Positions 2,260-17,592 of a stretch of DNA of 64,000 nucleotides are shown here, piece by piece. The translations under genes and the position numbers were made by a program. Position 1 is the first letter of the stretch; every line of letters begins with the position of its first letter. The DNA is from Allofournierella massiliensis (GTDB lineage Bacteria; Bacillota; Clostridia; Oscillospirales; Ruminococcaceae). Location: positions 1 through 64,000 of the forward strand of contig NZ_JAFBIO010000005.1 of the NCBI RefSeq assembly GCF_021531255.1, written 5' to 3'. The notes under the pieces were generated by a model, which saw nothing but the letters and a program-made list of their open reading frames with translations, did no database searches and was not told the origin of the DNA.

Positions 2260-5200
2260 ATGACTCATAAGCAGCAGATTCACGCGTTGTACCAGCAGAT
2301 CGCCCAGGCCCTGGCGGACCGGGGCTTTCTGCGCCAGGCGGGCCTTTCCAAGGGCGCGCTGGAAACCGCCCTGCGCCGGGAAGAGTGGGAAAAGGCTCTT
2401 TCCGGCCTGTGGCCCCTTGCCGGCCGGGCCGATTGCGCCGCCATCCTGGAACTCTGCCGCCCCGCCATGGAGCGGCTGGCCCCGGAGCCGGAGTGCGGCT
2501 GGATGGAGGGCGCCTACCACCTGGTGCGCTATACCATGTTCGGCCAGAAGGAATATATGCACCCCCTGGAAAAAAGCCGGCCGGCCCTGTATTTTTACCT
2601 GAAGGTGCTCCAGTTCTTCCTGGACGCCGAGCGCCAGCAGCAGCCCTTCGACCCCATGGTGGATCTTGAATTCCTGAAGGATGACGAGGCGCTCCGGTAC
2701 CCCAACGGCCGGGCCTACCTGCGCTTCAAGGCCGCCTGGCGGAGCCAGTATATCTATGAGATGCTCCGCCTGGGCGAGCTGGTTACCCCCTTCCGCACCC
2801 TGGAGCATATCGCCGGGGTGCACTATGTGGCGGTGGCGGTGGCCCGGGGAATGCTGGCCGCGGGCCTGCCCCTGGACCTGGCCCTCACCAGCGGTTCCAG
2901 CGCAGGGCATGATCTGGGCAAATTCGGCTGCCGGCCCGGCGAGCGGGTGCCCTACCTGCACTATTACTATACCGACCAGTGGTTCCACCAGCTGAATCTG
3001 GATGAGTTCGGCCATATTGCCGCCAACCATTCCACCTGGGACCTGGAGCTGGAAAACCTCTCGGCCGAGAACCTCTGCCTGATCTATGCGGATTTCCGGG
3101 TCAAGCAGGAGCGGGATGAGAATGGCCGGGAGATCGCACGCATCTATTCCCTGCGAGATTCTTTCGATGTCATCCTCTCCAAACTGGACAATGTGGACGA
3201 CGCCAAGCTGCGCCGATATAAATTTGTCTATTCCCGCCTGGAAGACTTCGAGGGGTATATGCGCGCGCTGGGGGTGGATGTGGATCTGACCGGCCAGCCC
3301 CAGAAGCCTGCGGTGCTGCCGGATATTGCCCTGCGCAGTGCCGAGGACACCCTCAAGAGCCTGGCCTATATGGGCATCGACCACAACATCCGGGTCATGC
3401 ATACCCTTTCCACCGAGCGGCAGTTCGGCAACCTGCTGGAAGCCGCCCGCAGTGAGAAGAACTGGAAGCATATCCGGGCCTATCTGACGGTTTTCCAGGA
3501 GTATTCCACCTATCTGAGCTTTGCCCAGAAAAAGCAGACCCTGGGCTTTTTGTACGAGCTGCTCATGCACCGGGAGGGCGATATCCGCCGGTACGCCGCG
3601 GTGCTGGTGGGCCAGGTGATCGCCGAATACGATGCTGGCTACCGCAAGGAGCACCCTGCCCACACCCGGGACCGGGATGAGGTGGACGCAGTGGCCCTGT
3701 GGAACCAGACCCTGGACGTGATCACCCAGCCTGACCACAAGCTCACCGCCCGGCACAAGAGCTGGCTGGGCTATACCCTCAAGATCGTGGTGGCCTCCCT
3801 CTTTGGCCGCGCGGGCGAGGCGGACGCAAAAATCTTCTATAAGGAACTGCTCAAGAGGTACGAAGCCTGGCAGGAAGATGAGGATACCGCCTTTGCCCTG
3901 CTGGATGCTTTGTATGACCTGCCCATGGAACTGGCCGAGGAGGAAGACTTAAAGCGGCTGGTACACTTTGCCAGCGGCTATTTCGGGGATTCCCGCCTCC
4001 GGCTGCGGATTGCGGCGGCCCGGTATTTTAAGATCCTCACCGCCGCCCTGCCCAAGGACCACCCGGCCCTGGAAGGGGTGGAGGAGCTGGCCCGGCAGAT
4101 GCCGGTGGAAAACGACATCACCACCCTGTTTTTGCAGTACCGCATCCTGAACAACCTGGGCTGCGATACCGCCGGGCAGCAGGAGATCCTTTACGGCACC
4201 GATGTGGTGAGTGAGATCTTCCTGGATAACCTGAAGACTTCCACCCCCTGGATCCTGAAAGCGGTGAACATCAAGCTGCTGGTGGATCAGGTGGATCACG
4301 GCCGGCTGGACCATCTGCTCCATATCGCCACCCATCTCTCCAACCTGGTAAAGGTAAGCGAGCATGTGGTGGTGCGCATGGATGCGGGCGAGGCCCTGCT
4401 GCGGCTGGTGGGGCGGCTCAGCCCGGATCAGCGCAACGAGATCGCGGTGGAACTGGTCAAGGGCCTGGAAGTGGGGGAATACGAGTTCTCCAAATACATC
4501 CCCGGCTGCCTGGGCCGGTTTGCCCTCTGGCTGCCCTCCGAGCAGCTGGATGAATTGATCATGAGCCTCCATTCTTACCTGGCCAGCGCCAACGAGCGGA
4601 TCGCCAGCGTGGCCCTGGAAACCATCGGCATCATGCTGAGCTATTACGAAGAGTATGGCGGCCGCTTTATGGAGCAGGGGGAACAGGGCCTTCACCGTCA
4701 GGAGGGGCTTTTGGGCATCCTGCTGGGCGGCATGGCCAACTACCGGGAAGAGGTGCGCCAGGAGGCCATGTGGGCCCTGGCCCGGTTCTTCGAGTCGGAT
4801 GTGCCCAGCGATCGGCTCAAGGGCTGGGTGCTGAGCCTGGCCTATAAAAAGATCCTCTTCCTGATGGAGGAGAACAAGGCCGGGGAGCTGAACGTCTATT
4901 ACCGGGCGGCGCTGCTCAGCCATCTCTGCCGCTTCTTGTCGGTGTACAGCATCGACCGGGGCCGCCTGCAGACCCAGGAGTACCGCCGGGTGGCCTTCTT
5001 CCCCGGCACCTTCGACCCCTTCACCCTCTCCCACAAGGGCATTGTGCGCCTGATTCGGGATCTGGGGTATGAGGTGTATCTGGCGGTGGATGAATTCTCC
5101 TGGTCCAAGAATACCCAGCCCCATCTGGTGCGCCGGCAGATCGTGAATATGTCGGTGGCGGATGAGTTCCATGTCCACCTCTTCCCGGACAACATCCCGG

Positions 5201-7089
5201 TGAACATCGCCAACCCCGGCGATCTGAACCGGCTGCGCCGGATCTTTGAGGGCCGGCCCCTTTACCTGGTGGCCGGAGGCGACGTGGTGCGGGGGGCTTC
5301 GGCCTATCGGGATCCGCCCTCCCCGGGCAGCGTCCATTCCCTGAACCACATCCTTTTCAGCCGCATCGAGCCCTCCCGCCGGGCCGAGGAGGAAAAGAGC
5401 TGGGGCTGCATCGAGGGGGAGATCATCCGCCTGCAGCTGCCTCCGGATCTGGAGGATATCAGCTCCACCCGCATCCGGGAAAATATCGACCTGAACCGGG
5501 ATATCTCCAACCTGATCGACCCGGTGGTGCAGGAATACATCTATTCCGATGGCCGCTATCTGCGGGAAAACAAATTCAAGATGGTGCTGGATAAGCGCAC
5601 CCTTTATAAGGAATTGGTCAGCCGCCCGGCCGAGGGGCTGCTGCGCCAGCTGGGGGATACGGTGCTCCACAAGCACCCCTATGCCCGGGATGTGCTCACC
5701 TCCATCGCCGTCACCGGGGATATGGTACTGGTGCTGCGCCATGCGGACAGCGGCCTGCCTGCCGGCTTTGCCCGTCTGCGGGTGGTGGAAAGCGAGGATC
5801 TGCTGGAGGCCCTGGGCTCTGTGTCCCTGGCCGAGCAGGTCCGGCAGGAAAGCGCTTGCGGCCGCCTGCTTTTGCTGAGCGGGCTGTATGTGGCCCGTCA
5901 GTCCGGCCTGCCCGACCCGGAGCAGTGGATCCTGGCCCAGGCCCTGGCGGAGGGCCTGGCCCGGGGCTGCAACTTCGCCGCCTTCATTCCCCATCTGGCC
6001 CTCACCGTGGGGGTGCGCCGGGCTCTGGAACGGCAGGGCTTTGTGCCGGCTGAATCCTCTACCGCCGAGGAGCCGGTGGCTCTGGTGGATATGCATCAGC
6101 CTCTGGTGTTGCTGCAGAACCTGGAAACCACCTTTAAGGCACCCTTCTCCTCCAGCCCCCGGCTGCTGCGGGCCATTCAGGAGGCCCACAGCCGGCTGCA
6201 GCTGGCCATGACCGGGCTCTACCCCGGCCAGTTGGTGCTGAGCCTGCCCTCCAGCCTGCTGCTGGAAGAGATGGTCACCAAGATGACCGCCCAGAACGGC
6301 GTGCCCCGCCAGCCCACCCAGCCCCGTCAGCTGGGGCCCCTCATGTGCGTGCCCTTCGGCAAGCTGATGCGGGGGCGGGTGGTGCCCAATACCGTCACCA
6401 AGACCCTTCACACCGATAAAGTCTATAACTCCACCCTGGAACAGGACGCCATTGAGCCCTTCCCCGGCTATACCAGCCTGGAAAGCCAGATCCGGGTCAT
6501 CAAGAGCTTCGGCCGCCCGGTGGTGCTGCTGGACGATATCCTGCACCGGCCCGGCCGCCTGCAGGCGGTGCTGCCCCTCTTCCGGAAGGAAGGGGTGGAG
6601 GTGAAGGGGGTCCTGCTGGGGGTTCTCTCGGCCCATGGCCGGGATCTGGTGGCGTCCACCGGCCTGCCAGTAGATGCGGTCTACTCCCTGCCCAGCCTTC
6701 GCCGCTGGTTTGTGGAATCCACCCTGTACCCCTTCATCGGCGGCGATACGGTGCGCAGAAGCACCCGCCAGGTGGCTGGCCTGATGCCCTCGGTAAACTT
6801 CATCCTGCCCTATGCGGTGCCCCGGATGAAGGGATGCAGCCAGAAGGCCCTGTTTGAATTCTCCGAATGCTGCCTTTCCAATGCCCGGGAGATTTTCCTG
6901 GTGCTGGAGTCGGAATACCGCCGCCAGTTCGGCCGGAACCTGACTCTCAGCCGCCTGAACGAGGCGGTCATCCTGCCCCTCTGCCCGGATAAGGGCAGCT
7001 GCCTGGCCTATGACCCCAACCTCTCTCCCTCGGTGTATCTGGAAAACGACCTGCATATGCTCCGCCGTGCCCGGCGCATCCTGGGCTGA
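2260..7089 (+). CDS. 1609-residue multidomain protein: HD, helical repeats, nucleotidyltransferase, GNAT-like and phosphoribosyltransferase-like regions
   Basis: Start chosen at the ATG at 2260 behind GGAGGAAAGAG; an earlier in-frame start at 2236 has no ribosome site. Order of parts: an HD-type region (about residues 150-340, with H183 and the pair H217-D218 in G-H-D-L-G-K-F); an all-helical HEAT-like region (about 370-900); a nucleotidyltransferase domain of the NadD/PPAT superfamily (about 910-1085) opening with P-G-T-F-D-P-F-T-L-S-H-K-G and closing with I-S-S-T-R-I-R; a GNAT-like region (about 1110-1260); and a C-terminal region (about 1330-1540) whose V-V-L-L-D-D-I-L-H-R-P-G-R-L resembles the PRPP loop of phosphoribosyltransferases. 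The canonical (H/T)-x-G-H reads T-L-S-H here. No signal peptide or membrane segment. It is 16 bases from the dehydrogenase-like gene at 7106. Annotated relatives are usually called only cytidyltransferase-related. HD, nucleotidyltransferase and PRTase calls rest on motifs; GNAT and HEAT calls are weaker. Confidence 0.8.
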   Translation: MTHKQQIHALYQQIAQALADRGFLRQAGLSKGALETALRREEWEKALSGLWPLAGRADCAAILELCRPAMERLAPEPECGWMEGAYHLVRYTMFGQKEYMHPLEKSRPALYFYLKVLQFFLDAERQQQPFDPMVDLEFLKDDEALRYPNGRAYLRFKAAWRSQYIYEMLRLGELVTPFRTLEHIAGVHYVAVAVARGMLAAGLPLDLALTSGSSAGHDLGKFGCRPGERVPYLHYYYTDQWFHQLNLDEFGHIAANHSTWDLELENLSAENLCLIYADFRVKQERDENGREIARIYSLRDSFDVILSKLDNVDDAKLRRYKFVYSRLEDFEGYMRALGVDVDLTGQPQKPAVLPDIALRSAEDTLKSLAYMGIDHNIRVMHTLSTERQFGNLLEAARSEKNWKHIRAYLTVFQEYSTYLSFAQKKQTLGFLYELLMHREGDIRRYAAVLVGQVIAEYDAGYRKEHPAHTRDRDEVDAVALWNQTLDVITQPDHKLTARHKSWLGYTLKIVVASLFGRAGEADAKIFYKELLKRYEAWQEDEDTAFALLDALYDLPMELAEEEDLKRLVHFASGYFGDSRLRLRIAAARYFKILTAALPKDHPALEGVEELARQMPVENDITTLFLQYRILNNLGCDTAGQQEILYGTDVVSEIFLDNLKTSTPWILKAVNIKLLVDQVDHGRLDHLLHIATHLSNLVKVSEHVVVRMDAGEALLRLVGRLSPDQRNEIAVELVKGLEVGEYEFSKYIPGCLGRFALWLPSEQLDELIMSLHSYLASANERIASVALETIGIMLSYYEEYGGRFMEQGEQGLHRQEGLLGILLGGMANYREEVRQEAMWALARFFESDVPSDRLKGWVLSLAYKKILFLMEENKAGELNVYYRAALLSHLCRFLSVYSIDRGRLQTQEYRRVAFFPGTFDPFTLSHKGIVRLIRDLGYEVYLAVDEFSWSKNTQPHLVRRQIVNMSVADEFHVHLFPDNIPVNIANPGDLNRLRRIFEGRPLYLVAGGDVVRGASAYRDPPSPGSVHSLNHILFSRIEPSRRAEEEKSWGCIEGEIIRLQLPPDLEDISSTRIRENIDLNRDISNLIDPVVQEYIYSDGRYLRENKFKMVLDKRTLYKELVSRPAEGLLRQLGDTVLHKHPYARDVLTSIAVTGDMVLVLRHADSGLPAGFARLRVVESEDLLEALGSVSLAEQVRQESACGRLLLLSGLYVARQSGLPDPEQWILAQALAEGLARGCNFAAFIPHLALTVGVRRALERQGFVPAESSTAEEPVALVDMHQPLVLLQNLETTFKAPFSSSPRLLRAIQEAHSRLQLAMTGLYPGQLVLSLPSSLLLEEMVTKMTAQNGVPRQPTQPRQLGPLMCVPFGKLMRGRVVPNTVTKTLHTDKVYNSTLEQDAIEPFPGYTSLESQIRVIKSFGRPVVLLDDILHRPGRLQAVLPLFRKEGVEVKGVLLGVLSAHGRDLVASTGLPVDAVYSLPSLRRWFVESTLYPFIGGDTVRRSTRQVAGLMPSVNFILPYAVPRMKGCSQKALFEFSECCLSNAREIFLVLESEYRRQFGRNLTLSRLNEAVILPLCPDKGSCLAYDPNLSPSVYLENDLHMLRRARRILG

Positions 7090-7105
7090 CGAGAAAGGAA
7101 CTGCC

Positions 7106-8353
7106 ATGTACTATTATCTTGTGGAGGGCGCGGTCTGCTGCTCTTTCACCCAATACCGGGATCTGGAGCCGCTGTCCCAGCCCCAAAAGCCGGAAGTATA
7201 TCTTTTTGAGGGGGATCCCCGGCGCTGCCGGGCCAGCTTTGCCCTCACCCAGCCGGGCCTGCTCACGGCGGGGCCGGAGAGCGTGGCCTGGCTGGACCGG
7301 AATTCCTGCCCCGAACCCGCCCAGCTGGACGAGCCGGTGCGGGAGGCCTTCCGTCAGGGAGGTCTGCGGGCGGTGAACCGGCTTTGCCCCGACTGGAAAA
7401 AGCTGCTCCGCCCTTCTTATAAAACCGGGAAAAAGCGGCTGAATCTGCTGGCCATGGGGGATGTGGGGGGCACCCTGCTCACCGGCCTGCGGCTGCTGGG
7501 CAGCGACGTGATCGAGAGCATCGGCATCTGTGATCTGAATGAAAAGGCCGCCGCCCGCTGGGAGTTTGAGGCCAACCAGATTGCCTATCCCTGGGAGTAT
7601 GACGCCCTGCCCCCGGTGGAGATCATCTCCCCGGAGGAGTTCTTCCGGTGCGACGCGGCGGTGTTCATCGCCAGCCGCAGCATCCCCCCGGTAGGTAGCC
7701 AGGTGCAGGATGTGCGGATGGCCCAGTTCGAGGCCAACCGGAAGATTGTGGCCGGCTATGCTCACCAGGCCCGGCGGGAGGGCTTCGGGGGGCTGTTCTG
7801 CCAGGTGAGTGATCCGGTGGACCCCCTGGCCCGAGTGATGTTTGAGGAGAGCAACCGGGATGAAGAGGGCCGGTGGGACGGCAAGGGCTTGCGCCCCGAG
7901 CAGATCCAGGGCTTCGGCCTGGGAGTGATGAATGCCAGGGCGGCCTACTATGCCAAAAAGGAGGAGAAGTTTGCCTCCTTCCTCACCCAGGGCCGTGCCT
8001 TCGGCCCCCACGGGGAGGATCTGGTCATTGCCAACTCGCTGGAAGCCTACGACCCGGCCCTCAGCGATGAGCTGACCCAAAAGGCGGTGCGGGCCAACCT
8101 GGAAATGCGGGCCCTGGGCTATAAGCCCTATGTGGCGCCGGCTTTTTCCTCGGGGGCTCTCAGCCTGCTGCTCACCCTAAGGGGACAGTGGCATTACGGT
8201 TCGGTCTTTTTGGGCGGGGTATATATGGGGTGCAAAAACCGTTATACTCCTCTCGGGCTGGAAACCGAGCTGGCGCCTCTGCCCGCGCCCCTTCTGGCCC
8301 GCATCCGGAAGGCGGCGGATCATCTGGCTTCCCTGGCCCAGCCCCTGGAATGA
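7106..8353 (+). CDS. Lactate/malate dehydrogenase-like NAD-binding protein
   Basis: 415 residues from the ATG at 7106 (GAGAAAGGAA ribosome site). About 105 N-terminal residues match nothing I recognise. From about residue 112 comes a Rossmann start, L-L-A-M-G-D-V-G-G-T-L-L-T-G, followed 20 residues later by the acidic strand end I-C-D-L-N-E-K, as in lactate/malate dehydrogenases. The order later in the chain (substrate-domain helices, then a C-terminal strand pair ending with G-G-V-Y-M-G-C-K) is also consistent, but I cannot place the canonical catalytic Arg/His pair with certainty. It lies between the 1609-residue protein and a flavodoxin-fold protein with small gaps, so the three are probably one operon. 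An NAD-binding role is likely; the reaction is unknown and it need not be a hydroxyacid dehydrogenase. Confidence 0.75.
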   Translation: MYYYLVEGAVCCSFTQYRDLEPLSQPQKPEVYLFEGDPRRCRASFALTQPGLLTAGPESVAWLDRNSCPEPAQLDEPVREAFRQGGLRAVNRLCPDWKKLLRPSYKTGKKRLNLLAMGDVGGTLLTGLRLLGSDVIESIGICDLNEKAAARWEFEANQIAYPWEYDALPPVEIISPEEFFRCDAAVFIASRSIPPVGSQVQDVRMAQFEANRKIVAGYAHQARREGFGGLFCQVSDPVDPLARVMFEESNRDEEGRWDGKGLRPEQIQGFGLGVMNARAAYYAKKEEKFASFLTQGRAFGPHGEDLVIANSLEAYDPALSDELTQKAVRANLEMRALGYKPYVAPAFSSGALSLLLTLRGQWHYGSVFLGGVYMGCKNRYTPLGLETELAPLPAPLLARIRKAADHLASLAQPLE

Positions 8354-8404
8354 TCCTGATTTTAAGCGCCCTTTGGGGCGAAACAGAAAAGAAGTGCTGA
8401 CAAA

Positions 8405-9487
8405 ATGGATTCTCTTCTCACGGTATGGGTGCCCGGCAGGGCGCCGCAAGTTCCTTCCGGGCGGCTGGGCCGGGTGCTGGAAAAAGCCCTGGACGGCCTG
8501 CCCTTCCGCCTGGCGGATACCGAAACCCTCTGCCGGCAAAAAGGGCCGGGGCCGGTGCTCTTTTGCCTTCCCCTGGATGCCAACGGCCTGAACCCGGACT
8601 ATTTTTCCCTGCTGGCGGCCCTGCGGGGCGGTGCCTGCCCGCTGGAAGGCTGGGTGGGCGGCCTGGTGGTGGACGGCGAGGGAGAACTCTACACCAAGGC
8701 CGTGGCCCGGGAGCTGGTGCTGGCCGCCAACCGGGCGGGCTGCGCCTTTGTGGGCCGGCCCCTGGTGGAAGCCACCGGTTCCCTGGAAAATTTCCGGGTC
8801 CGGGCGGGGCTGCTGGGCGCGGGGCTGGAAGATGCCTACCGGGAGGAAGTGAAGGATCTGGCCGGCCGGCTGCTGGCCTTCCGGCCCCTTGAGCCGGCCC
8901 GGCCGCCCCGGCTGCTGGTGATTCATGCCTCCAACCGCTCCACCAGCAATACCCTGGCCCTCTGGCAGCAGGTCCGGCAGGGACTGGAAGAGGAGTGCGA
9001 GATCCAGGAAATCGGCCTGCGCAACGGCACGCTGGAAGACTGCGCCGGCTGCCCCTATAAGACCTGCCTGCACTTCGGCGAACAGGGCAGCTGTTTTTAC
9101 GGCGGGGTCATGGTTCGTCAGGTCTACCCGGCAGTGAGTGAGGCCGACGCCATTCTGCTGCTCTGCCCCAATTACAACGACGCGGTGTCGGCCAACCTCA
9201 CCGCCTTCATCAACCGGCTCACAGCCCTGTTCCGCACCCGGCGTTTTTACGACAAGGCTCTGTTTGCCCTGGTGGTGTCGGGCTATTCGGGCAGCGATCT
9301 GGTGGCCCAGCAGCTCATTTCGGCTCTCAACATGAACAAATCCTTCTTTCTGCCGCCCCATTTCTGCCTGATGGAAACCGCCAATGACGCAGGGGCGGCC
9401 CTGCGTCTGCCCGGCATCGAAACAAGGACGGCGGCCTTTGCCCGGAATATCCGGCAGGCCCTGGGGCTGGATGGAAAAAAAGCCTGA
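8405..9487 (+). CDS. Flavodoxin-fold NAD(P)H-dependent FMN reductase-like protein with extra N-terminal domain
   Basis: 360 residues. Residues about 1-165 are unrecognised. From about residue 168 a flavodoxin-like fold begins (L-L-V-I-H-A-S-N-R-S-T-S-N-T), matching the FMN-phosphate loop of NADPH-dependent FMN reductases. It is followed by a cysteine cluster D-C-A-G-C-P-Y-K-T-C and the L-C-P-N-Y-N-D-A-V-S-A-N-L strand and loop. It probably moves electrons through FMN in the cytoplasm. The gene is third in the apparent operon starting at 2260. The 51-base gap before it contains a small perfect hairpin (8367-8380, CGCCC/GGGCG) with no T-run, so it is probably not a terminator. Start at the ATG at 8405 is plausible though its ribosome site is weak. 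Confidence 0.75.
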   Translation: MDSLLTVWVPGRAPQVPSGRLGRVLEKALDGLPFRLADTETLCRQKGPGPVLFCLPLDANGLNPDYFSLLAALRGGACPLEGWVGGLVVDGEGELYTKAVARELVLAANRAGCAFVGRPLVEATGSLENFRVRAGLLGAGLEDAYREEVKDLAGRLLAFRPLEPARPPRLLVIHASNRSTSNTLALWQQVRQGLEEECEIQEIGLRNGTLEDCAGCPYKTCLHFGEQGSCFYGGVMVRQVYPAVSEADAILLLCPNYNDAVSANLTAFINRLTALFRTRRFYDKALFALVVSGYSGSDLVAQQLISALNMNKSFFLPPHFCLMETANDAGAALRLPGIETRTAAFARNIRQALGLDGKKA

Positions 9488-9665: not shown

Positions 9666-11009
9666 ATGGCTGTACATGAGAAAAAAGCCCCCTCGTTGCC
9701 GCCTGTGGGGAAAAGGCTGCCGGCGGGCGGCGCCAAGGAATGCCGTCAGATTCTCCTGACCGGTCTGGTGGTTATTCTGTTCAGCGAGCTGTATTTCAGC
9801 TTTGCCCTCAAGACCTTCCGGATCAGTCTGGCGGTGGCGGTGTTCCCGGTGCTGCTGGTGACTCTCGCCCGGGAAAGTAATCCGTTTATCACCGGCCTGT
9901 GCACTTCGGCGCTGGTGGGGGCCTTTCGGTTCGGCCTTTCCCTCTTGCAGGGGATGAGCCCGGCTGAGGCTTTTGCCGAAAATATCTATGGTGCCATGTT
10001 CTATACCTGGTATGGCCTGTTCTTCATGCTGCTGGTCAAAAAGAAGAGCGTGGTGCCCACCGTGCGGCTGATGGCCGTGGTGCTGTTCTGCGATTTCGGG
10101 GCCAACCTGGTGGAGGTGGGCTTTGAGACCGGCCTGCGCTATGATACCCAGGAATATACCTTTTACATCCTGCTTTTGCTGGTGGCCTGCTTCCGCACCC
10201 TCTGTGCCGGCACCCTGCTGGCCCTGTACTGGAGCTATTTCAGCTTGCTGAGCCAGGCCGGCCACGAGGAACGGTATCAGAAGTTATTTATGATGAAGAC
10301 CGGCCTCAAGACCGAGATCTATTTCATGCACCGCAGTTCCGAGCAGATCGAGGGGATCGTGCGCAATGCCTACCGGCTGTACGAGGATCTTTCCGGCATG
10401 GAGGTGCCGCCCGAGACCCAGAAGCTGGCCTTGCAGATCGCCTGCGATGTCCACGATATCAAAAAGGATTACATCCGCATCACCCAGGGTATTGAAAGCC
10501 AGATCGGCGAGAGCGCCGAAGAGGGTGCCATGAGTTTTTCCAGCCTGCTGCGGATCCTGCGGGAATCCACCTACCGGCTGAAGGATGTGGATGAGGAGCG
10601 GATCCGGCTGGATTTCCGCTGTCGGCAGGACTTTACCACCCACCACCACTACGCGCTTATGAGCGTGTTGTATAATCTTGTCACCAACTCGGTAGAGGCC
10701 ATCCAGTCGGCCGGCGGCCGGGGAGAGGTGCGCATTGAGGAGGAAAAGCAGGGGGATAAATACCTCATCACAGTCATCGACAACGGGCCCGGCATCCCGC
10801 CGGAACTGATGCGCTCGGTGTTCAAGATGGGCTTTTCCACAAAATATAACGAAAAAACAGGGAATATGAGCCGGGGCATGGGCCTGCCGGGGGTGAAGCT
10901 CTCGGTAGAAGAACAGCTGGGCGGCAGCCTGCTGGTGAGCAGCGAGCCGGGCCGACAGACCGCCTTTTATCTGGAGATACCGGCCGGGAAACTGGAGAGT
11001 GAGACATGA
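9666..11009 (+). CDS. Membrane sensor histidine kinase, GlnK (YcbA)-like
   Basis: 447 residues. The N-terminal half holds about five or six hydrophobic segments (residues 25-200). It is followed by a dimerisation region with a candidate phospho-acceptor H263 in D-V-H-D-I-K-K-D-Y, and a GHKL ATPase domain: N-box L-V-T-N-S-V-E-A-I (about 337-345), G1 D-N-G-P-G-I-P and G2 G-M-G-L-P-G-V-K. Its stop overlaps the start of the response regulator by four bases, a typical kinase-regulator pair. The partner carries a YcbB-type output domain and the next gene is glutamate dehydrogenase, so I infer a nitrogen or glutamine signal as for the Bacillus GlnK/GlnL pair. The ligand is not visible from sequence. 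Confidence 0.88.
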   Translation: MAVHEKKAPSLPPVGKRLPAGGAKECRQILLTGLVVILFSELYFSFALKTFRISLAVAVFPVLLVTLARESNPFITGLCTSALVGAFRFGLSLLQGMSPAEAFAENIYGAMFYTWYGLFFMLLVKKKSVVPTVRLMAVVLFCDFGANLVEVGFETGLRYDTQEYTFYILLLLVACFRTLCAGTLLALYWSYFSLLSQAGHEERYQKLFMMKTGLKTEIYFMHRSSEQIEGIVRNAYRLYEDLSGMEVPPETQKLALQIACDVHDIKKDYIRITQGIESQIGESAEEGAMSFSSLLRILRESTYRLKDVDEERIRLDFRCRQDFTTHHHYALMSVLYNLVTNSVEAIQSAGGRGEVRIEEEKQGDKYLITVIDNGPGIPPELMRSVFKMGFSTKYNEKTGNMSRGMGLPGVKLSVEEQLGGSLLVSSEPGRQTAFYLEIPAGKLESET

Positions 11010-11851
11010 GAATTTACATTATAGAAGACGACCCCTCGGTGATCCAGGTCCTGCGCAGGATCGTGGAAGAGCAGGGACTGGGGGAGGTATGCGGGGATAC
11101 CGTCAGCGCCATGCCGCCCCTGGAGCAGATCCTGGCCGCCAAGCCGGATCTGATCCTGGTGGACTTTTTGATGCCCCAGCGGGACGGCATAGAGGTGGTG
11201 AGCCGACTGCGGCAGATGGGCTGCACCGCCAAATGCATCATGCTCAGTCAGATCTCTTCCAAGGAGATGATCGCCAAGGCTTACCGGGCCGGCATTGATT
11301 TCTTCATCTCCAAGCCCATCAATGTGATCGAGGTGCAGGCGGTGATCTCCAATGCGGCCAAGCAGCTGCAGAACGAGAAAACTCTGGAAAGCATCCGCAG
11401 CATCTTTCAGCAGCAGCCCGGCACCGCCGGCCCTGCCGCCCCGGTGGTCACCCTGGATACCCGGATGAAGCGGGTACAGAACGCCCTGGCCCAGATGGGT
11501 ATGTCGGGGGAGAAGGGCTGCGCCGATATCCTGCGCCTGTGCCGCTATCTTTTGGAAAACCAGCTGGATGTGAGCCAGATGAGCGTGGGCCAGCTGTGCG
11601 AGAGCCTCAGCGATAACCCCAAAAATATGGAGCAGCGGGTGCGCCGGGCCATTGCGGTGGGCATGGCCAACCTGGCGCACCTGGGGATTGAGGATTTCAT
11701 GAACGATACCTTTGCCCAGTATTCCTCCACCCTTTTCAATTTTGAGGAACTGCGGGCTGAGATGGATTACATACGGGGCCGGCGGGCTGCCGGCGGAAAG
11801 ATCAGCCTGAAAAAATTCCTGGATGGGCTGGTACTGATCGCTCAGGAGTGA
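11006..11851 (+). CDS. Response regulator with YcbB-type output domain, GlnL-like
   Basis: 281 residues. The receiver domain (1-120) has the acidic pocket E7/D8/D9, phosphorylation site D53 in L-I-L-V-D-F-L-M-P and a late I-S-K-P-I lysine. A linker of about 40 residues leads to a C-terminal helical domain (about 155-281) resembling the YcbB domain of the Bacillus regulator GlnL rather than a LytTR, OmpR or NarL domain. The start overlaps the kinase gene (ATGA), so translation is coupled. Located 266 bases before gdhA, whose leader holds inverted and direct repeats that could be its target. Regulator identity is firm; the GlnL-like assignment is from overall pattern and context. Confidence 0.87.
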   Translation: MRIYIIEDDPSVIQVLRRIVEEQGLGEVCGDTVSAMPPLEQILAAKPDLILVDFLMPQRDGIEVVSRLRQMGCTAKCIMLSQISSKEMIAKAYRAGIDFFISKPINVIEVQAVISNAAKQLQNEKTLESIRSIFQQQPGTAGPAAPVVTLDTRMKRVQNALAQMGMSGEKGCADILRLCRYLLENQLDVSQMSVGQLCESLSDNPKNMEQRVRRAIAVGMANLAHLGIEDFMNDTFAQYSSTLFNFEELRAEMDYIRGRRAAGGKISLKKFLDGLVLIAQE

Positions 11852-11881
11852 GCACAAAACAGGTACACGTTCAGACAGTCA

Positions 11882-11942
11882 AGCGGTAAAAGTGCTGAAT
11901 ATGGAAAGGAGGAAATTGTCAAAGTGCTGAAAGTTTACCGCT
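11882..11942 (+). promoter_or_regulatory. Nested inverted and direct repeats upstream of gdhA
   Basis: AGCGGTAAA (11882-11890) and TTTACCGCT (11934-11942) form a perfect 9-bp inverted repeat. Just inside lie two identical 11-bp direct repeats AAAGTGCTGAA at 11889-11899 and 11921-11931, 32 bases apart start to start. The block lies between the response regulator and glutamate dehydrogenase genes. It may be an operator for the GlnL-like regulator or an RNA hairpin in the gdhA leader. Downstream at about 12024-12049 an ACCGCC/GGCGGT stem may form a second hairpin. No convincing promoter is visible for gdhA. Confidence 0.45.
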
Positions 11943-12117
11943 GCTGCCTGAAAAAATTATCACAAACGTATTATTCTGTAGAATTCTGACGCCGAAGAGC
12001 TACCGTACTAAAAGAAAGCAAAACCGCCGGAAATATTTCAATAAGGGCGGTCTCGTCTTTCGTTTACGGTGTTTGGAATGAAAGTGCAGACAAAAAAGCT
12101 TTCAGGAGGAAAAGGAA

Positions 12118-13470
12118 ATGAACGCATACATTGAACGTGTGTTGGAAGCCACCAAGAAAAAGAACGCTTCCGAGCCCGAATTCCTGCAGACTGTGGAAGA
12201 GGTCTTCTCTTCTCTGGAGCCTGTGATCAACGCTCACCCCGAGTACGAAAAGGCCAGCCTGCTGGAGCGGATCGTGGAGCCTGAGCGCACCGTTGAGTTC
12301 CGCGTCACCTGGATGGACGACAACGGCCAGTATCATGTGAACCGCGGCTATCGTGTGCAGTACAATGCCGCCCTGGGCCCCTACAAGGGCGGTCTGCGCT
12401 TCGACCCCTCCGTCAACCTGTCCATCATCAAGTTCCTGGGCTTTGAGCAGACCTTCAAGGACGCTCTGACCGGCCTGCCCATCGGCGGCGCCAAGGGCGG
12501 CAGCGACTTTGATCCCCGCGGCCGCAGCGATGCTGAGGTCATGCGTTTCTGCCAGGCCTTTATGACCGAGCTGTATCGCCACATCGGCCAGGATATCGAC
12601 TGCCCCGCCGGTGACCTGGGCTGCGGCGGCCGTGAGATCGGCTACCTGTACGGCCAGTATCGCCGCCTGGTGGGCGCTGCCGAGTTCGGCGCTGTCAGCG
12701 GCAAGGCTGTCTGCACCGGCGGTTCCATCCTGCGTCCCGAGGCTACCGGCTACGGCGCTGTGTACTACCTGCGCGAAGTGCTGCGCCATGACGGCGAAGA
12801 GCTGGCCGGCAAGCGCATCGCCATTTCCGGCTACGGCAACGTGGGCTGGGGCATCATCAAGAAGGCCAACGAGCTGGGCGCCAAGGTCACCTACTTCGCC
12901 GGCCCCGACGGCTACATCCATGATCCCGACGGCGTTTCCACCGAGGAGAAGCTCAACTTCATCCTGGAGATGCGCGCCAAGGATCCCATGCACTGCGAGC
13001 CCTACGCCAAGAAGTTCGGCTGCGAGTTCGTGCCCGGCCAGAAGTGCTGGGGCGTCAAGGACGTGGACATCTATATGCCCGCTGCCACCCAGAACGACGT
13101 CAACCTGGAATGGGCCAAGAAGATCGTGGATTCCGGCGTGAAGTACTACATCGAAGTGGCCAACATGCCCACCACCAACGACGCTCTGGAGCTGCTGCGC
13201 AGCCAGAAGCATATGGTCGTGGCTCCCTCCAAGGCTGTCAACGCCGGCGGCGTGTCCGTGTCCGAGCTGGAGATGGCCCAGAACGCCGAGCGCCTGTACT
13301 GGACCGCTGAGGAAGTGGACCAGAAGCTCACCGGCATCATGAAGAACATCTATGATTCTTCTGTGGAAGTGGCCGAGCGCTATGGCCTGGGCTATGACCT
13401 GGTGGCCGGCGCCAACCTGGTAGGCTTCCAGCGGGTGGCCGATGCCATGATGGCTCAGGGCATCTTCTAA
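12118..13470 (+). CDS. gdhA: NADP-type glutamate dehydrogenase
   Basis: 450 residues, the standard size for hexameric family I GDH. It makes glutamate from 2-oxoglutarate, ammonia and NAD(P)H. Visible signatures: the G-G-L-R-F-D-P substrate segment, K-F-L-G-F-E-Q-x-F-K-D-A-L-T-G-L-P-I-G-G-A-K-G-G with the catalytic lysine region, the P-A-G-D-L-G-C-G-G-R-E segment, and the Rossmann G-Y-G-N-V-G-W-G. AGGAGG lies just before the ATG. Codon choice is more uniform (GGC, CTG, AAG, GAG) than in the neighbours, as expected of a very highly expressed gene. It follows the GlnK/GlnL-like pair and is closed by a strong terminator. NADP preference is inferred from family length and is not proved. Confidence 0.96.
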   Translation: MNAYIERVLEATKKKNASEPEFLQTVEEVFSSLEPVINAHPEYEKASLLERIVEPERTVEFRVTWMDDNGQYHVNRGYRVQYNAALGPYKGGLRFDPSVNLSIIKFLGFEQTFKDALTGLPIGGAKGGSDFDPRGRSDAEVMRFCQAFMTELYRHIGQDIDCPAGDLGCGGREIGYLYGQYRRLVGAAEFGAVSGKAVCTGGSILRPEATGYGAVYYLREVLRHDGEELAGKRIAISGYGNVGWGIIKKANELGAKVTYFAGPDGYIHDPDGVSTEEKLNFILEMRAKDPMHCEPYAKKFGCEFVPGQKCWGVKDVDIYMPAATQNDVNLEWAKKIVDSGVKYYIEVANMPTTNDALELLRSQKHMVVAPSKAVNAGGVSVSELEMAQNAERLYWTAEEVDQKLTGIMKNIYDSSVEVAERYGLGYDLVAGANLVGFQRVADAMMAQGIF

Positions 13471-13510
13471 TCCGGCTCCATACCGGCATTTCTCTTCATT
13501 TGTACTTGCG

Positions 13511-13557
13511 GGGCGCGGTGGTCTGCCCTCAAAGACCGCCGCGCCTTTTTGTATTTT
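13511..13557 (+). terminator. Strong intrinsic terminator after gdhA
   Basis: A 13-bp stem (GGCGCGGTGGTCT with AGACCGCCGCGCC, one G-U pair) is followed by TTTTTGTATTTTT. Confidence 0.92.
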
Positions 13558-13869
13558 TCAGCAAAGGCAGGATCTCTTTTGGTTCGGTTCAACCCTTGAT
13601 CGGTAAGCAGTTCCGGTGGTTCTGCCTTCTCTTGTATCCTGACAAAGAGGGAATTTGAAGCTTTTTGAGGAAGCTTTTTCCCGCGGGGCGGATTTTGAAG
13701 CCCCCAAATGGAAGGTTACAAAACAAATACAAAAAGCGAATGGAATAAAATGAACGGGATTCGCGCAAAAACCTTTTGTATCGTGGTTTTGCTTTTCGGG
13801 GCCTTTCGGGCAAAAAAGCTTAAAAGACGAAAAACGATGCTTTTTGAAAGTTTTAACTTTGCCGAGAAA
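13558..13869. other. Intergenic stretch with no recognisable gene
   Basis: About 310 bases between the gdhA terminator and the TAXI promoter. It is more AT-rich than the surroundings, with a short direct repeat GAAGCTTTTT (near 13658 and 13670). Reading frames here have no ribosome sites and no recognisable protein features. It might be long upstream regulatory DNA for the transporter. Confidence 0.5.
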
Positions 13870-13898
13870 TTGACAGCCTGCTGAAAAGACGGTATAAT
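13870..13898 (+). promoter_or_regulatory. Consensus sigma-A promoter of the TAXI-TRAP operon
   Basis: TTGACA (13870-13875), exactly 17 bases, TATAAT (13893-13898): a perfect match to consensus, 88 bases before the start codon. Confidence 0.88.
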
Positions 13899-13985
13899 CT
13901 AGTTGCACATGGGGCGATGATTCGTATCTTTTCCTTTACGGATTCAGGCTCTCCATGAAATAATCAAACAAGGGGGACTACACAC

Positions 13986-15014
13986 ATGAAAAAGACCTTA
14001 GCGATCGTGTTGGCTCTGGCCATGGCGCTTGCGCTGGTTGCTTGCGGCGGTTCTACTTCCAGCTCCGCGGCTGCTTCCGGGGCTACCTCCGGTGCTGCCA
14101 GCACTCCTGCCGCTTCCGGCGAGAAGACCGACATCACTCTGGCCACCGGTTCCACCAGCGCCAACTACTACGCCATCGGCGGCGTGATGAGCACTGTGCT
14201 GAACGACAAGCTCAGCCTGTCCACCATCAACGTTACCTCCACCGGCGCCTCCAAGGCCAATGTCCAGCTGCTGCAGGACGGCGAGGCGAATATGTGCATC
14301 GTGCAGAATGACGTGGCTTCCTACGCCTACACCGGCACCGACCTGTTCGAGGCCGAGGGCTCCTACACCGATTGGAGTGCCCTGTGCGCCATGTACGACG
14401 AGACCGTGCAGATCTTCACCCTGAACCCCGAGATCAAGACCTTCACCGACCTGAAGGGCAAGACCGTTTCCGTGGGCGCTGCCGGTTCCGGCGACAACTT
14501 CGCGGCTGGTCAGATCTTTGCCGAGTTCGGCATGACCTTTGACGATGTGAACGCGGTTTACCAGTCCTACAGCGACTCCGCTGAGGGCATGAAGGACGGC
14601 AAGATCGACGCTGCCTTCTGCGTGTCCGGCGCTCCCACCACCGCTCTGGTTGACCTGGCTGCTACTGCCGGCAAGCCCCTGAACATCATCACCATCGAGC
14701 CCGAGCACATCCAGGGCCTGATGGATAAGTACTCCTTCTACACCGAGACCACCATTCCTGCCGGTACTTACGACGGCCTGGATACCGATGTGACCACCGT
14801 GTCCATCCGTGCCATGCTGGCCTGCCGCAACGACGTCTCCGAGGACGTGGTTTACGAGCTGATGACCGCCATGTTCGACAACCTGGACGACCTGAAGGCC
14901 GGCCATGCCAAGTTTGAGAGCCTGTCTCTCGAGTCTGCTACCGAGGGCGTCAGCCTGCCGTATCATCCCGGCGCCGTCAAGTTCTTCGAGGAGAACGGCA
15001 TCACCGTCGAGTGA
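13986..15014 (+). CDS. TAXI family TRAP transporter solute-binding lipoprotein
   Basis: 342 residues. A lysine start, hydrophobic core and lipobox L-V-A-C put the lipidated cysteine at residue 20. A Ser/Ala-rich linker (21-45) then leads into the TAXI domain: D-I-T-L-A-T-G-S-T-S-A-N-Y-Y near the start of the mature domain, then the V-S-V-G-A-A-G-S-G-D-N hinge motif. It captures a solute outside the membrane for the fused permease at 15643. TAXI ligands known for the family include glutamate/glutamine and other small carboxylates. Placement beside gdhA and a GlnK/GlnL-like system makes glutamate a reasonable but untested guess. Consensus promoter and codon bias suggest high expression. Confidence 0.94.
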   Translation: MKKTLAIVLALAMALALVACGGSTSSSAAASGATSGAASTPAASGEKTDITLATGSTSANYYAIGGVMSTVLNDKLSLSTINVTSTGASKANVQLLQDGEANMCIVQNDVASYAYTGTDLFEAEGSYTDWSALCAMYDETVQIFTLNPEIKTFTDLKGKTVSVGAAGSGDNFAAGQIFAEFGMTFDDVNAVYQSYSDSAEGMKDGKIDAAFCVSGAPTTALVDLAATAGKPLNIITIEPEHIQGLMDKYSFYTETTIPAGTYDGLDTDVTTVSIRAMLACRNDVSEDVVYELMTAMFDNLDDLKAGHAKFESLSLESATEGVSLPYHPGAVKFFEENGITVE

Positions 15015-15041
15015 TGAATCTCCAAACGCGAACCAGGTTTT

Positions 15042-15530
15042 GTGAATAAGTACAAGCTTAGGGTAGCTGCGGCTGCAATAGTCTGTCTGGCTATTGCAGC
15101 CGTTTTTGTGTTTGGCCGGCCCAAAGGCTATCTCGTTCTGAGCAACGGCAACACAGGCGAGGAATATGCCAGGTATCGGCTGGACCAAGGCGAAACGTTT
15201 TCCATTACGTTCATCCATTCGGTGAACAAAAGCCCGGTTACCGATTGCTATGATGTGGCCGAAGACGGCGGCATCTGGCTTCGGCGGACGATCTACTATG
15301 ATTTTGGGGCCGGTGTGCCCTTTGATCTGAATGAGGGAGAAAGTCTGGAATATGCCGAGGATGGAGCCATGGTGATCACAGGGATCGATCGGGAGATCCC
15401 GGATTTTCTGATCTTTGTGGGCACCGTATCGGATCACACCCTCCGCATCGGGGGAGAAGAGATCAGTTTGAGAGATTTGTGCGGACGAAGTGCCAAGGTC
15501 CGCATCCGGTATGAAGAGCGCTGGATTTAG
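15042..15530 (+). CDS. DUF1850 protein, TAXI-TRAP accessory
   Basis: 162 residues from a GTG at 15042 with a poor ribosome site (only AGG at -7). One N-terminal membrane segment (residues about 7-26) precedes a beta-rich exported domain with the family pattern F-S-I-T-F-I-H-S-V-N-K-S-P-V and a following acidic Y-D-V-A. DUF1850 proteins are repeatedly found between TAXI-TRAP binding protein and permease genes, exactly the arrangement here, so it probably assists that transporter at the membrane outer face. The mechanism is not known. Confidence 0.88.
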   Translation: MNKYKLRVAAAAIVCLAIAAVFVFGRPKGYLVLSNGNTGEEYARYRLDQGETFSITFIHSVNKSPVTDCYDVAEDGGIWLRRTIYYDFGAGVPFDLNEGESLEYAEDGAMVITGIDREIPDFLIFVGTVSDHTLRIGGEEISLRDLCGRSAKVRIRYEERWI

Positions 15531-15642
15531 AAGCGGCGCCATTCAAAACGGCTTTGAAGGAAAAGCCAGGAGGGCGGCTATAGCGGCCCTGCGGCCCGCC
15601 CTTTTACGGCAGATAAAAATTAGCGAATAGGGAGGTATCTTA

Positions 15643-17592
15643 GTGTCAGATCTGGAGAAGAAATCCGTCGACACCGCGCCTGAAGTCGAAGAACAGAACG
15701 TTCAGGCCGATGTGGACGAGATTATGAAAAAATACGACCGTGAATCCAACGTTCGTATTTGGGAAGGCGTCCCCAAGCAGATCGTCCACTACACCCTGGC
15801 GGCATTCAGCCTGTTCTTGATGTGGATGAATCTGTTTGCCAACTGGAGCGAGACGGTCCGCCGTCCTCTGTTCCTGGGCATCGTGATTCTGTTCGTCTTT
15901 ATCGTGTTCCCCATGCGCAAGGGCGGCGTGCAGAAGGTCAACAGCATTCCCATCTATGATATCATCCTGGCAGTAGCCGGGGCGGGTTCTTATTTCTACT
16001 TTGTAATCAACGAGCAGGACCTGATGATGCGGGCCACCCGTATCACCCAGCTGGAAATCGTTTTGGGCGTGATCGGCGCATTGGTTCTGTTCGAATGCTG
16101 CCGGCGCGTGGTGGGTCTGCCCATCCTCTGCGTGGCTACCTGCTTTATCATCTACGCTTTCAGCACCGGCAAGACCCTGAAGCGCGTGGTGTATGACCTG
16201 TTCTATACCACCACCGGTATCATCGGCACTCCCATCGGTGTCTGCTCCACCTACATTGCGCTGTTCATCATCTTCGGCGCTTTCCTGGAAGCCACCGGTA
16301 TCAGCAACTTCTTCATTTCCTGCGCCAACGCGGTTTGCGGCTTTGCCTCCGGCGGCCCTGCCAAGGTGGCTGTTATCTCCAGCGCTCTGTGCGGCATGGT
16401 TTCCGGTTCTTCCGTGGGCAACACCGTTACCACCGGTTCCGTCACCATCCCCATGATGAAGCGTACCGGCTATCCGCCTGAATTCGCAGGCGCGGTAGAA
16501 GCGGCATCCTCCACCGGCGGCCAGATCATGCCCCCCATCATGGGCGCGGCAGCCTTCCTGATGGCCGAAATGGTGGGCGTACCCTATTCCGACATCATCG
16601 TCCGGGCCATCCTGCCCGCCATCCTCTACTTTGCCGGCATCTTCCTGCAGGTGCACCTGCGGGCAAAGCGCCTGGGCCTGAAGGGTATCCCCCGCGAGGA
16701 GCTGCCCAAGTGGAAAAACCTCTGGCCCAAACTCTACCTGCTCATTCCTCTGGTCGCTCTGGTTGCCATGATCATGAGCGGCCGCACCATGGCTCGTTCT
16801 GCCATCATCGCCACCGGCCTGTGCATCGTGGTGAGCCTGTTCAATAAAGAGCAGCGCATGACCATCAACGGCTTCTTCAACGCTCTGGAAGCCGGCGCCC
16901 GCAACTGCCTGTCCATCGGCATCGCCTGCGGCGTGGCCGGTATCATCGCCGGTGTGGTTACCATGACCGGTCTGGGCCAGGTATTCATCTCCGCCATTGT
17001 GGGCGTGGCCAACGGCCAGCTCATCATCGCCCTGTTCCTCACCATGATCACCTGCATCATCCTGGGCATGGGCGTTCCCACCACGGCCAACTACATCATC
17101 ATGGCCACCACCTGCGCTCCCATCCTGGTTACCGGTATGGGCATGGATGCCATCGCTGCCAACATGTTCGTGTTCTACTTCGGCATCGTGGCGGACATCA
17201 CTCCTCCCGTGGCTCTGGCTGCCTATGCGGGCTCTGCCATTGCCAAGGCCAACCCCATGAAGACGGCTTTCCAGGCAACCCGTCTGGCTATTGCGGCCTT
17301 CCTGATCCCCTACATCTTTGCTCTGAACCCGGCAATGCTCTTCATCGATACCACGGTCATCGAGGTTATCCAGGTGATCATCACCAGCTCGATCGGTATG
17401 GCAGGTGTCGCTGCCGGCATCGAGGGCTATCTGATGGGCAACATGAATCCCTTCGAGCGTGTTATGTCCATTGTGGGCGGTCTGATGATGCTCTATCCGG
17501 GCACCGTGACCGACCTGATCGGCGCCGCCCTCATCGTTCTGGTGGGTGTGTTCCAGATCATGCGGCATAAGCGCGAAGGCGCCGCTGCTTGA
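15643..17592 (+). CDS. TAXI-TRAP transporter fused DctQ/DctM-type permease
   Basis: 649 residues with a hydrophilic 45-residue N-terminus and about 17 hydrophobic segments: a short four-segment DctQ-like part (about 50-170) fused to the large DctM-like part. Typical loops are present: A-S-G-G-P-A-K-V-A-V-I-S-S-A-L-C-G-M-V-S-G-S-S-V-G-N-T-V and, later, G-M-G-V-P-T-T-A-N-Y-I. It drives ion-coupled import of the solute held by the lipoprotein at 13986. The GTG start at 15643 follows GGGAGGT. The 112-base gap before it holds a GGGCGG/CCGCCC stem (about 15573-15602) that may tune the ratio of binding protein to permease. Confidence 0.95.
   Translation: MSDLEKKSVDTAPEVEEQNVQADVDEIMKKYDRESNVRIWEGVPKQIVHYTLAAFSLFLMWMNLFANWSETVRRPLFLGIVILFVFIVFPMRKGGVQKVNSIPIYDIILAVAGAGSYFYFVINEQDLMMRATRITQLEIVLGVIGALVLFECCRRVVGLPILCVATCFIIYAFSTGKTLKRVVYDLFYTTTGIIGTPIGVCSTYIALFIIFGAFLEATGISNFFISCANAVCGFASGGPAKVAVISSALCGMVSGSSVGNTVTTGSVTIPMMKRTGYPPEFAGAVEAASSTGGQIMPPIMGAAAFLMAEMVGVPYSDIIVRAILPAILYFAGIFLQVHLRAKRLGLKGIPREELPKWKNLWPKLYLLIPLVALVAMIMSGRTMARSAIIATGLCIVVSLFNKEQRMTINGFFNALEAGARNCLSIGIACGVAGIIAGVVTMTGLGQVFISAIVGVANGQLIIALFLTMITCIILGMGVPTTANYIIMATTCAPILVTGMGMDAIAANMFVFYFGIVADITPPVALAAYAGSAIAKANPMKTAFQATRLAIAAFLIPYIFALNPAMLFIDTTVIEVIQVIITSSIGMAGVAAGIEGYLMGNMNPFERVMSIVGGLMMLYPGTVTDLIGAALIVLVGVFQIMRHKREGAAA

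Follow-up and report, generated by a model that had tools for sequence, protein, structure and literature searches.

A three-gene set of Clostridia built around a predicted five-domain protein with HD, NadD-like and phosphoribosyltransferase-fold regions

GlnD and RelA/SpoT combine a transferase and an opposed HD hydrolase in one chain. Fusions of NadD with YqeK are present in mycoplasma (JCVISYN3A_0380), where, according to one report (PMC9426524), they serve in proofreading of NAD synthesis and cleave wrong analogues of nicotinic acid adenine dinucleotide (NaAD). The present analysis concerns three consecutive genes, designated A, B and C (Table 1), of Allofournierella massiliensis (assembly GCF_021531255.1). 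They lie in a stretch of 64,000 nt, referred to as the window, which comprises positions 1-64,000 of the forward strand of contig NZ_JAFBIO010000005.1. An original prediction from the DNA sequence described three open reading frames on the same strand, the first encoding a 1609-residue protein, that together look like a nucleotide- or cofactor-handling pathway, and their coordinates and lengths were found to be as claimed. A GGAGG-type ribosome site precedes the ATG of A at 2260, the stop of A is at 7089, and the spacings are 16 bases between A and B and 51 bases between B and C.

A, B and C travel as one real set. In a sample of 391 genomes drawn evenly from the class, with E thresholds of 1e-30 for A, 1e-20 for B and 1e-40 for C, A was found in 32 genomes, B in 31 and C in 30. 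The genomes carrying B or C are subsets of those carrying A, and neither gene was found in the 359 others. The exceptions among the A-positive genomes are G596 (84% complete), which has neither B nor C, and G655 (82% complete), which has no C. A strictly conserved 7-kb module is thus carried by about one in twelve of the sampled Clostridia genomes, and no characterised relative of its main protein was found. The expectation that the three genes are neighbours in other genomes was also borne out: among loci with at least 3.2 kb of sequence downstream of A, A is followed by both partners in 55/64 loci from a scan of genome contigs, in 15/19 from diverse genomes and in all 10 of a first set that includes the window. 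These counts rest on tblastn for B and C and not on a codon-usage gene caller, which misread locus L037. Departures from the order comprise C on the opposite strand (L058), B and C upstream of A (L070), B only (L084, L088 and L112), neither gene (L078, L091, L097, L100, L166 and L174), and B and C located 5.4-5.7 kb downstream behind other genes (L159 and L160).

In sequence searches by themselves, A showed a weakly matching NadD-like segment and faint signs of a phosphoribosyltransferase (PRTase), and most assignments were settled by profiles and structure prediction. Residues 895-1609 were modelled with AlphaFold2 (AF2) from 33 sequences, those of the window and of named contigs, with a mean predicted local distance difference test score (pLDDT) of 83.2. 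Motif counts refer to 110 distinct homologues (112 loci minus two duplicates), most of them ~34-57% identical to A. The NadD model TIGR00482 matches residues 914-1100 of A with an E value of 2.4e-6, solved NadD-type structures were matched in a profile search of the PDB (best E 9e-9), and the AF2 model agrees with the NadD fold (NaMNAT) over 186 residues (VIA Z 16.5, root-mean-square deviation 3.0). The T/HxGH-type motif is degenerate and was correctly read as T-L-S-H in place of T-x-G-H; across the family the predominant form is [T/S]-L-[S/G]-H, and its final His (H925) is present in 110/110 homologues. The residues of the ISSTxIR motif are likewise conserved (I in 107, both S in 109, T in 94, I in 109 and R in 109 of the 110), the x position being variable. 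Among the matches of A in Pfam and NCBIfam with E values up to 1, there was no GlnD/nucleotidyltransferase or RelA model.

The GNAT-like segment adopts this fold in the model (Foldseek E 4.2e-6; VIA Z 14.7 to 2r7h). The [QR]xxGx[GA] acetyl-CoA loop was not seen in the 16 printed rows of the alignment of A, and a loose match to it anywhere in a longer stretch occurs in 32 of the 110 homologues. Given the absence of the loop from the inspected rows, the GNAT domain is more likely a structural or binding domain. Foldseek related the next region to xanthine PRTase of B. subtilis (E 6.3e-5 to 1.8e-4, TM (target) ~0.46). When compared with the pattern hhhhDDhhxxGxT, the loop for phosphoribosyl pyrophosphate (PRPP) has D1425 in 110/110, D1426 in 104/110, the Gly in 103/110 and R1433 in 110/110 homologues; in the window's A, the Gly sits one position later than in the family. 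Comparison by hhalign with the genome's eight own PRTases, four of which were without the right frame or a visible loop, gave no useful score. Of the PRPP-loop-like region claimed originally, the fold and the two Asp residues stood, and the loop proved to be altered, with Arg for the final Thr. The NadD-superfamily and GNAT assignments of the original prediction were upheld, and the nucleotidyltransferase and PRTase folds for which structure prediction had been proposed as a check both appear in the AF2 model.

The N-terminal half (residues 1-905) was modelled from 28 sequences with a pLDDT of 89.4. Foldseek and VIA matches of this model indicate that residues 378-903, previously described as helical repeats, form a predicted HEAT/ARM solenoid. 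Upstream of it, H183, H217, D218, K221, H234, H257 and D278 are present in 110/110 homologues and include the H...HD...D metal-ligand pattern of the HD superfamily. An HD domain is thus assigned to A by its motif of invariant metal ligands. The HD region predicted at the outset retained its ligand-type residues and gained no confirmation from fold or Pfam searches: no Pfam HD match is listed for A, the best HD structure in the PDB profile search had an E value of 0.78, and HEAT solenoids filled the lists from the fold searches with the N-terminal half, so that no HD protein was among the matches listed. Comparison of this region by hhalign with five HD families, named by eye, gave 61% for dGTPase, 34% for HD-GYP, 29% for RNase Y, 1.6% for three YqeK sequences and 0.8% for RelA/SpoT.

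The families proposed for the two partner genes were supported. B, which had been described as an NAD-binding protein like lactate and malate dehydrogenases (LDH/MDH), matched the LDH family in the PDB profile search (best E 1.5e-6), and its hhalign comparison with the genome's own LDHs gave 96.9% over 288 columns, the whole LDH domain. R204 and R278, which we take to be the two substrate arginines, are present, as are H302, presumably the active-site His, and D143, presumably the Asp that binds the NAD ribose. B also carries an N-terminal extension of ~105 aa without an assigned fold. C, claimed as a flavodoxin-fold protein, matched Pfam FMN_red over residues 169-325 with an E value of 1.7e-22 (80.1 bits against a gathering threshold of 24), and is preceded by an N-terminal domain of ~165 aa without an assigned fold. 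Cys213, 216, 221 and 230 of C are invariant in a 10-sequence alignment, have the spacing CX2CX4CX8C and presumably lie near the place of the cluster motif of iron-sulfur flavoprotein (Isf). These four invariant cysteines suggest that C holds an Isf-like cluster.

The precedent of the NadD-YqeK fusions, the extra PRTase domain and the two redox partners together point to a dinucleotide that would be made and unmade by A. In the preferred reading, to which a probability of roughly 0.35 is given, A may be bifunctional, synthesising and hydrolysing an NAD-like dinucleotide, B and C may be its redox partners, and the system may serve glutamate/NADP(H) metabolism. A, B and C would form one enzyme assembly acting on this dinucleotide. 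The NadD-like domain would transfer the adenylyl moiety of ATP onto a mononucleotide, and the PRTase domain would either supply this mononucleotide, using PRPP and a base, or sense PRPP. The HD domain would hydrolyse the product of the NadD-like domain, or wrong versions of it, whereas the HEAT solenoid would keep the domains, and probably the partners too, together. B and C would catalyse or regulate a redox reaction, either of the product or with NAD(P)H and flavin. The recurrent neighbours of the set, which are NADP- or glutamate-linked (glutamate dehydrogenase (GDH), glutamate-synthase-like proteins, AmtB, Nfn-type proteins and FolD), count in favour of this reading. A nucleotide- or cofactor-handling set as first proposed fits, since the genes are neighbours elsewhere and the nucleotidyltransferase and PRTase folds are predicted; its exact route (phosphoribosyl transfer, adenylylation, hydrolysis, then redox), like the catalytic steps, the substrate, the direction and an A-B-C complex in the present model, is inferred. 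If a dinucleotide tied to glutamate metabolism is indeed made or controlled by the set, gut anaerobes would have a new cofactor or a new regulatory circuit in their amino-acid metabolism.

Several points weigh against this reading. The substrate of A is inferred throughout, the score of A with TIGR00482 (27.7 bits) is far below the curated cut-off of 112.45, and Tyr or Phe lies near the position that the nicotinate-stacking Trp occupies in NadD. The PRPP loop is altered, with His/Asn and Arg replacing the usual Thr-type residues, the Arg being in place of the final Thr in 110/110 homologues. B is without the Asp-His catalytic pair of LDH/MDH, as His302 is kept and Met275 replaces the Asp, both being invariant in an 11-sequence alignment; in addition, the NPVD segment reads DPVD (D236, Asp for the substrate-loop Asn). 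Finally, neither B nor C is near A in loci L072, L078, L091, L097, L100 and L174, which have ~3 kb or more downstream, or in L166, the genome of which (G574) has the set elsewhere.

The main alternative, itself somewhat doubtful and retained next to the dinucleotide reading because of the glutamate-linked neighbours and the fewer canonical PII matches in A carriers, is a nitrogen-control device. Like GlnD or RelA/SpoT, A would nucleotidylate and de-nucleotidylate its target, which could be a small signal or a protein (GDH, for example). PRPP/purine and a metabolite would be sensed by the PRTase and GNAT domains, and the redox state would be reported by B and C. The link to GDH and glutamate synthase was not foreseen in the original prediction and leaves room for a regulatory role. 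Outside B and C, the gene families near A each occur there in at most 13 of the 112 loci. As judged by tblastn, GDH is near A in 14 of the 110 distinct loci, with at least eight state changes on the tree, and is found both upstream and downstream and on both strands, which favours this alternative. A distance of 10 kb or less between GDH and the set was found in 12 of 42 A-positive genomes against 0.59 expected (58 strong GDH copies, P 3e-13) and, by genus, in 8 of 29 against 0.47 expected (P 1e-8); these statistics assume uniform placement and model kinship no further than genus. The other 30 of the 42 carriers, which have no GDH near the set, count against it. Further support comes from L159 and L160, loci of two genomes of one family, where three glutamate-synthase-like genes, and in L160 AmtB too, lie between A and B; the trio was tested in one genome, in which only the middle gene matched a glutamate-synthase model, and the other genes and those of the second genome were named by eye. 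Nfn-type/gltA subunits flank the set in two loci, FolD-like genes in three and FchA in one. Canonical PII matches (>60 bits) were found in 5/35 A-positive and 21/45 A-negative genomes (Fisher p 0.0035), a contrast that counts for nitrogen control but is suggestive only, as it is uncorrected for kinship, the A-negative genomes being nearly one per family and the A-positive ones clustered. The HEAT scaffold is suited to protein binding. However, NadD-type transferases are known for small-molecule substrates, and B and C resemble metabolic enzymes.

Equally tentative is the proposal that A both forms and breaks down a nucleotide-linked cofactor or signal so far undescribed, a mononucleotide being formed from PRPP, adenylylated and cleaved, and that B and C use or reset it. 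If so, many Clostridia would depend, for their glutamate and NADP(H) metabolism, on a dinucleotide that is not known to have been isolated. Metabolite damage control, in which A would remove or re-make wrong NAD(P)-type dinucleotides, and B and C would reduce or oxidise damaged forms and so shield NADP-dependent enzymes, is unlikely. It draws on the cleavage of wrong NaAD analogues reported for the mycoplasma fusions (PMC9426524), on the NADP dependence of several neighbours (GDH, Nfn-type and FolD) and on the fact that A provides an extra NadD-like domain besides the housekeeping NadD; however, of the five HD families YqeK had one of the two lowest hhalign scores, and less patchiness would be expected of a repair system, whereas near-relatives live without the set. 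It is very improbable that the catalytic domains of A are largely inactive and that it serves B and C as a structural or regulatory scaffold, as the loss of the GNAT loop from the inspected rows and the altered PRPP loop might indicate, given that the active-site residues of the HD and NadD-like regions are nearly invariant in the 110 sequences and that dN/dS is 0.069.

This dN/dS value of A, determined against a sister species, compares with 0.166 for B and 0.199 for C, and A is under strong purifying selection. The genome-contig scan gave at least 544 stretches with A confirmed by tblastn, of which 80 were kept. A chance origin is excluded because A is conserved at full length in many genomes. 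Carriers belong to Lachnospiraceae, Oscillospiraceae (with the gut genera Oscillibacter, Flintibacter and Pseudoflavonifractor among them) and Anaerovorax and include three metagenome-assembled genomes (MAGs) labelled Chloroflexi or Anaerolineaceae; another carrier, Acetoanaerobium, came from a separate search. Among 61 genomes, the own one and 60 relatives, full-length A is confined to the own genus (2 genomes), and A is present over most of its length in 10 of 394 genomes of the order. In a FastTree tree, a 15-row clade unites the window's A with Lachnospiraceae, even though the species shares its order with Oscillospiraceae; A in the loci of two order-mates is identical to named Oscillibacter and Oscillospiraceae records. 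The simplest reading of this patchy spread would be horizontal transfer. The MAG loci L098, L113 and L116 nest inside the Oscillospiraceae clade, which may reflect either horizontal transfer or contamination by mis-binned contigs.

Second copies of A within one genome or locus were observed in L166 (genome G574), L174 (genome G616) and L055; the arrangement in L055 is A-B-C-A, and the copies in L166 and L174 have no adjoining B or C.

Other origins and roles were considered and rejected. For phage origin, no match was found in phages and 0 of 66 pattern matches in viral contigs were confirmed. The sole match labelled as plasmid is a 2.6-Mb Acetoanaerobium record (NZ_CP154629.1, L027) that is chromosome-like in size. 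No PADLOC family of anti-phage defence matched A, B or C at E <=0.1. Because NadD, CoaD and two LDHs are encoded separately in the genome, A and B come in addition to them, and A is no replacement for housekeeping NadD or CoaD.

In the window, a nitroreductase-family gene (1636-2163) lies directly upstream of A, as it does in the sister species; nitroreductase-like genes were recognised by eye near A in L070 and L164, and conservation of such a gene beside A is not general. Downstream of the set, positions 9666-17592 encode a histidine kinase, a YcbB-type response regulator, the NADP-type GDH, a TAXI-type binding protein, a DUF1850 protein and a DctM transporter. Kinase and regulator homologues are also located 3' of A-B-C in the Lachnospiraceae-type loci L038, L039, L041 and L042, and the order kinase-regulator-GDH-transporter is partly common to Lachnospiraceae loci.

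Table 1. Positions in the window of the A-B-C set, the predicted regions of A and the neighbouring GDH gene.
Feature	Position	Strand	Basis
Gene A, predicted five-domain protein (HD - HEAT - NadD-like - GNAT fold - PRTase fold), 1609 aa	2260..7089	+	open reading frame, ribosome site, full-length homologues
Putative HD metal-dependent hydrolase region of A, residues ~150-340	2707..3279	+	invariant ligand-type residues
Predicted HEAT-repeat solenoid of A, residues ~378-903	3391..4968	+	AF2 model, Foldseek and VIA matches
NadD-like nucleotidyltransferase domain of A, residues ~909-1105	4984..5574	+	TIGR00482, PDB profile, VIA, motifs
TLSH motif of A	5023-5034	+	within NadD-like domain
ISSTRIR motif of A	5458-5478	+	within NadD-like domain
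GNAT-fold domain of A, residues ~1114-1279	5599..6096	+	Foldseek, VIA
Type I PRTase-fold domain of A, residues ~1324-1514	6229..6801	+	Foldseek, conserved loop residues
PRPP-like loop of A	6520-6561	+	within PRTase-fold domain
Gene B, LDH/MDH-superfamily NAD-binding protein, 415 aa	7106..8353	+	profile against PDB, hhalign
Gene C, N-terminal domain and FMN_red flavodoxin domain, 360 aa	8405..9487	+	Pfam, alignment
NADP-type GDH, neighbour outside the core set	12118..13470	+	NF006929, 624.5 bits

No description of this three-gene system was found in the open-access literature searched. For the five-domain chain with two co-occurring partners, no described kind of system was found, each domain fold being known; newness is therefore claimed for the system and not for its parts. 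C resembles the FMN_red/iron-sulfur flavoprotein family in its FMN_red domain and four invariant cysteines, and differs in the spacing of these cysteines and in the extra N-terminal domain. B aligns with L-lactate/malate dehydrogenases (PF00056/PF02866) over the whole LDH domain and keeps R204, R278 and H302, but has Met275 for the catalytic Asp, DPVD for NPVD and the N-terminal extension. With GlnD and RelA/SpoT, A shares the logic of opposed activities, and the set shares nitrogen-gene neighbours; however, the transferase of A is from another superfamily, and no GlnD or RelA family is among its matches. A is like NadD, nicotinate-nucleotide adenylyltransferase, in its fold (Z 16.5) and its T/HxGH-type and ISSTxIR motifs, whereas it scores below the curated cut-off, has mostly [TS]L[SG]H, is extra to the genome's own NadD and has the domain embedded in 1609 aa. 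A single chain with both a NadD-type adenylyltransferase and an HD hydrolase would be common to A and the NadD-YqeK fusions (NCBIfam NF005519). In contrast to the fusions, A scores 12.9 against the NF005519 cut-off of 315, its HD region gives 1.6% by hhalign with YqeK (COG1713), and the order is reversed, with the HD region N-terminal and ~500 residues of HEAT repeats between the two, to which A adds the GNAT and PRTase folds and two partner genes that always co-occur with it.

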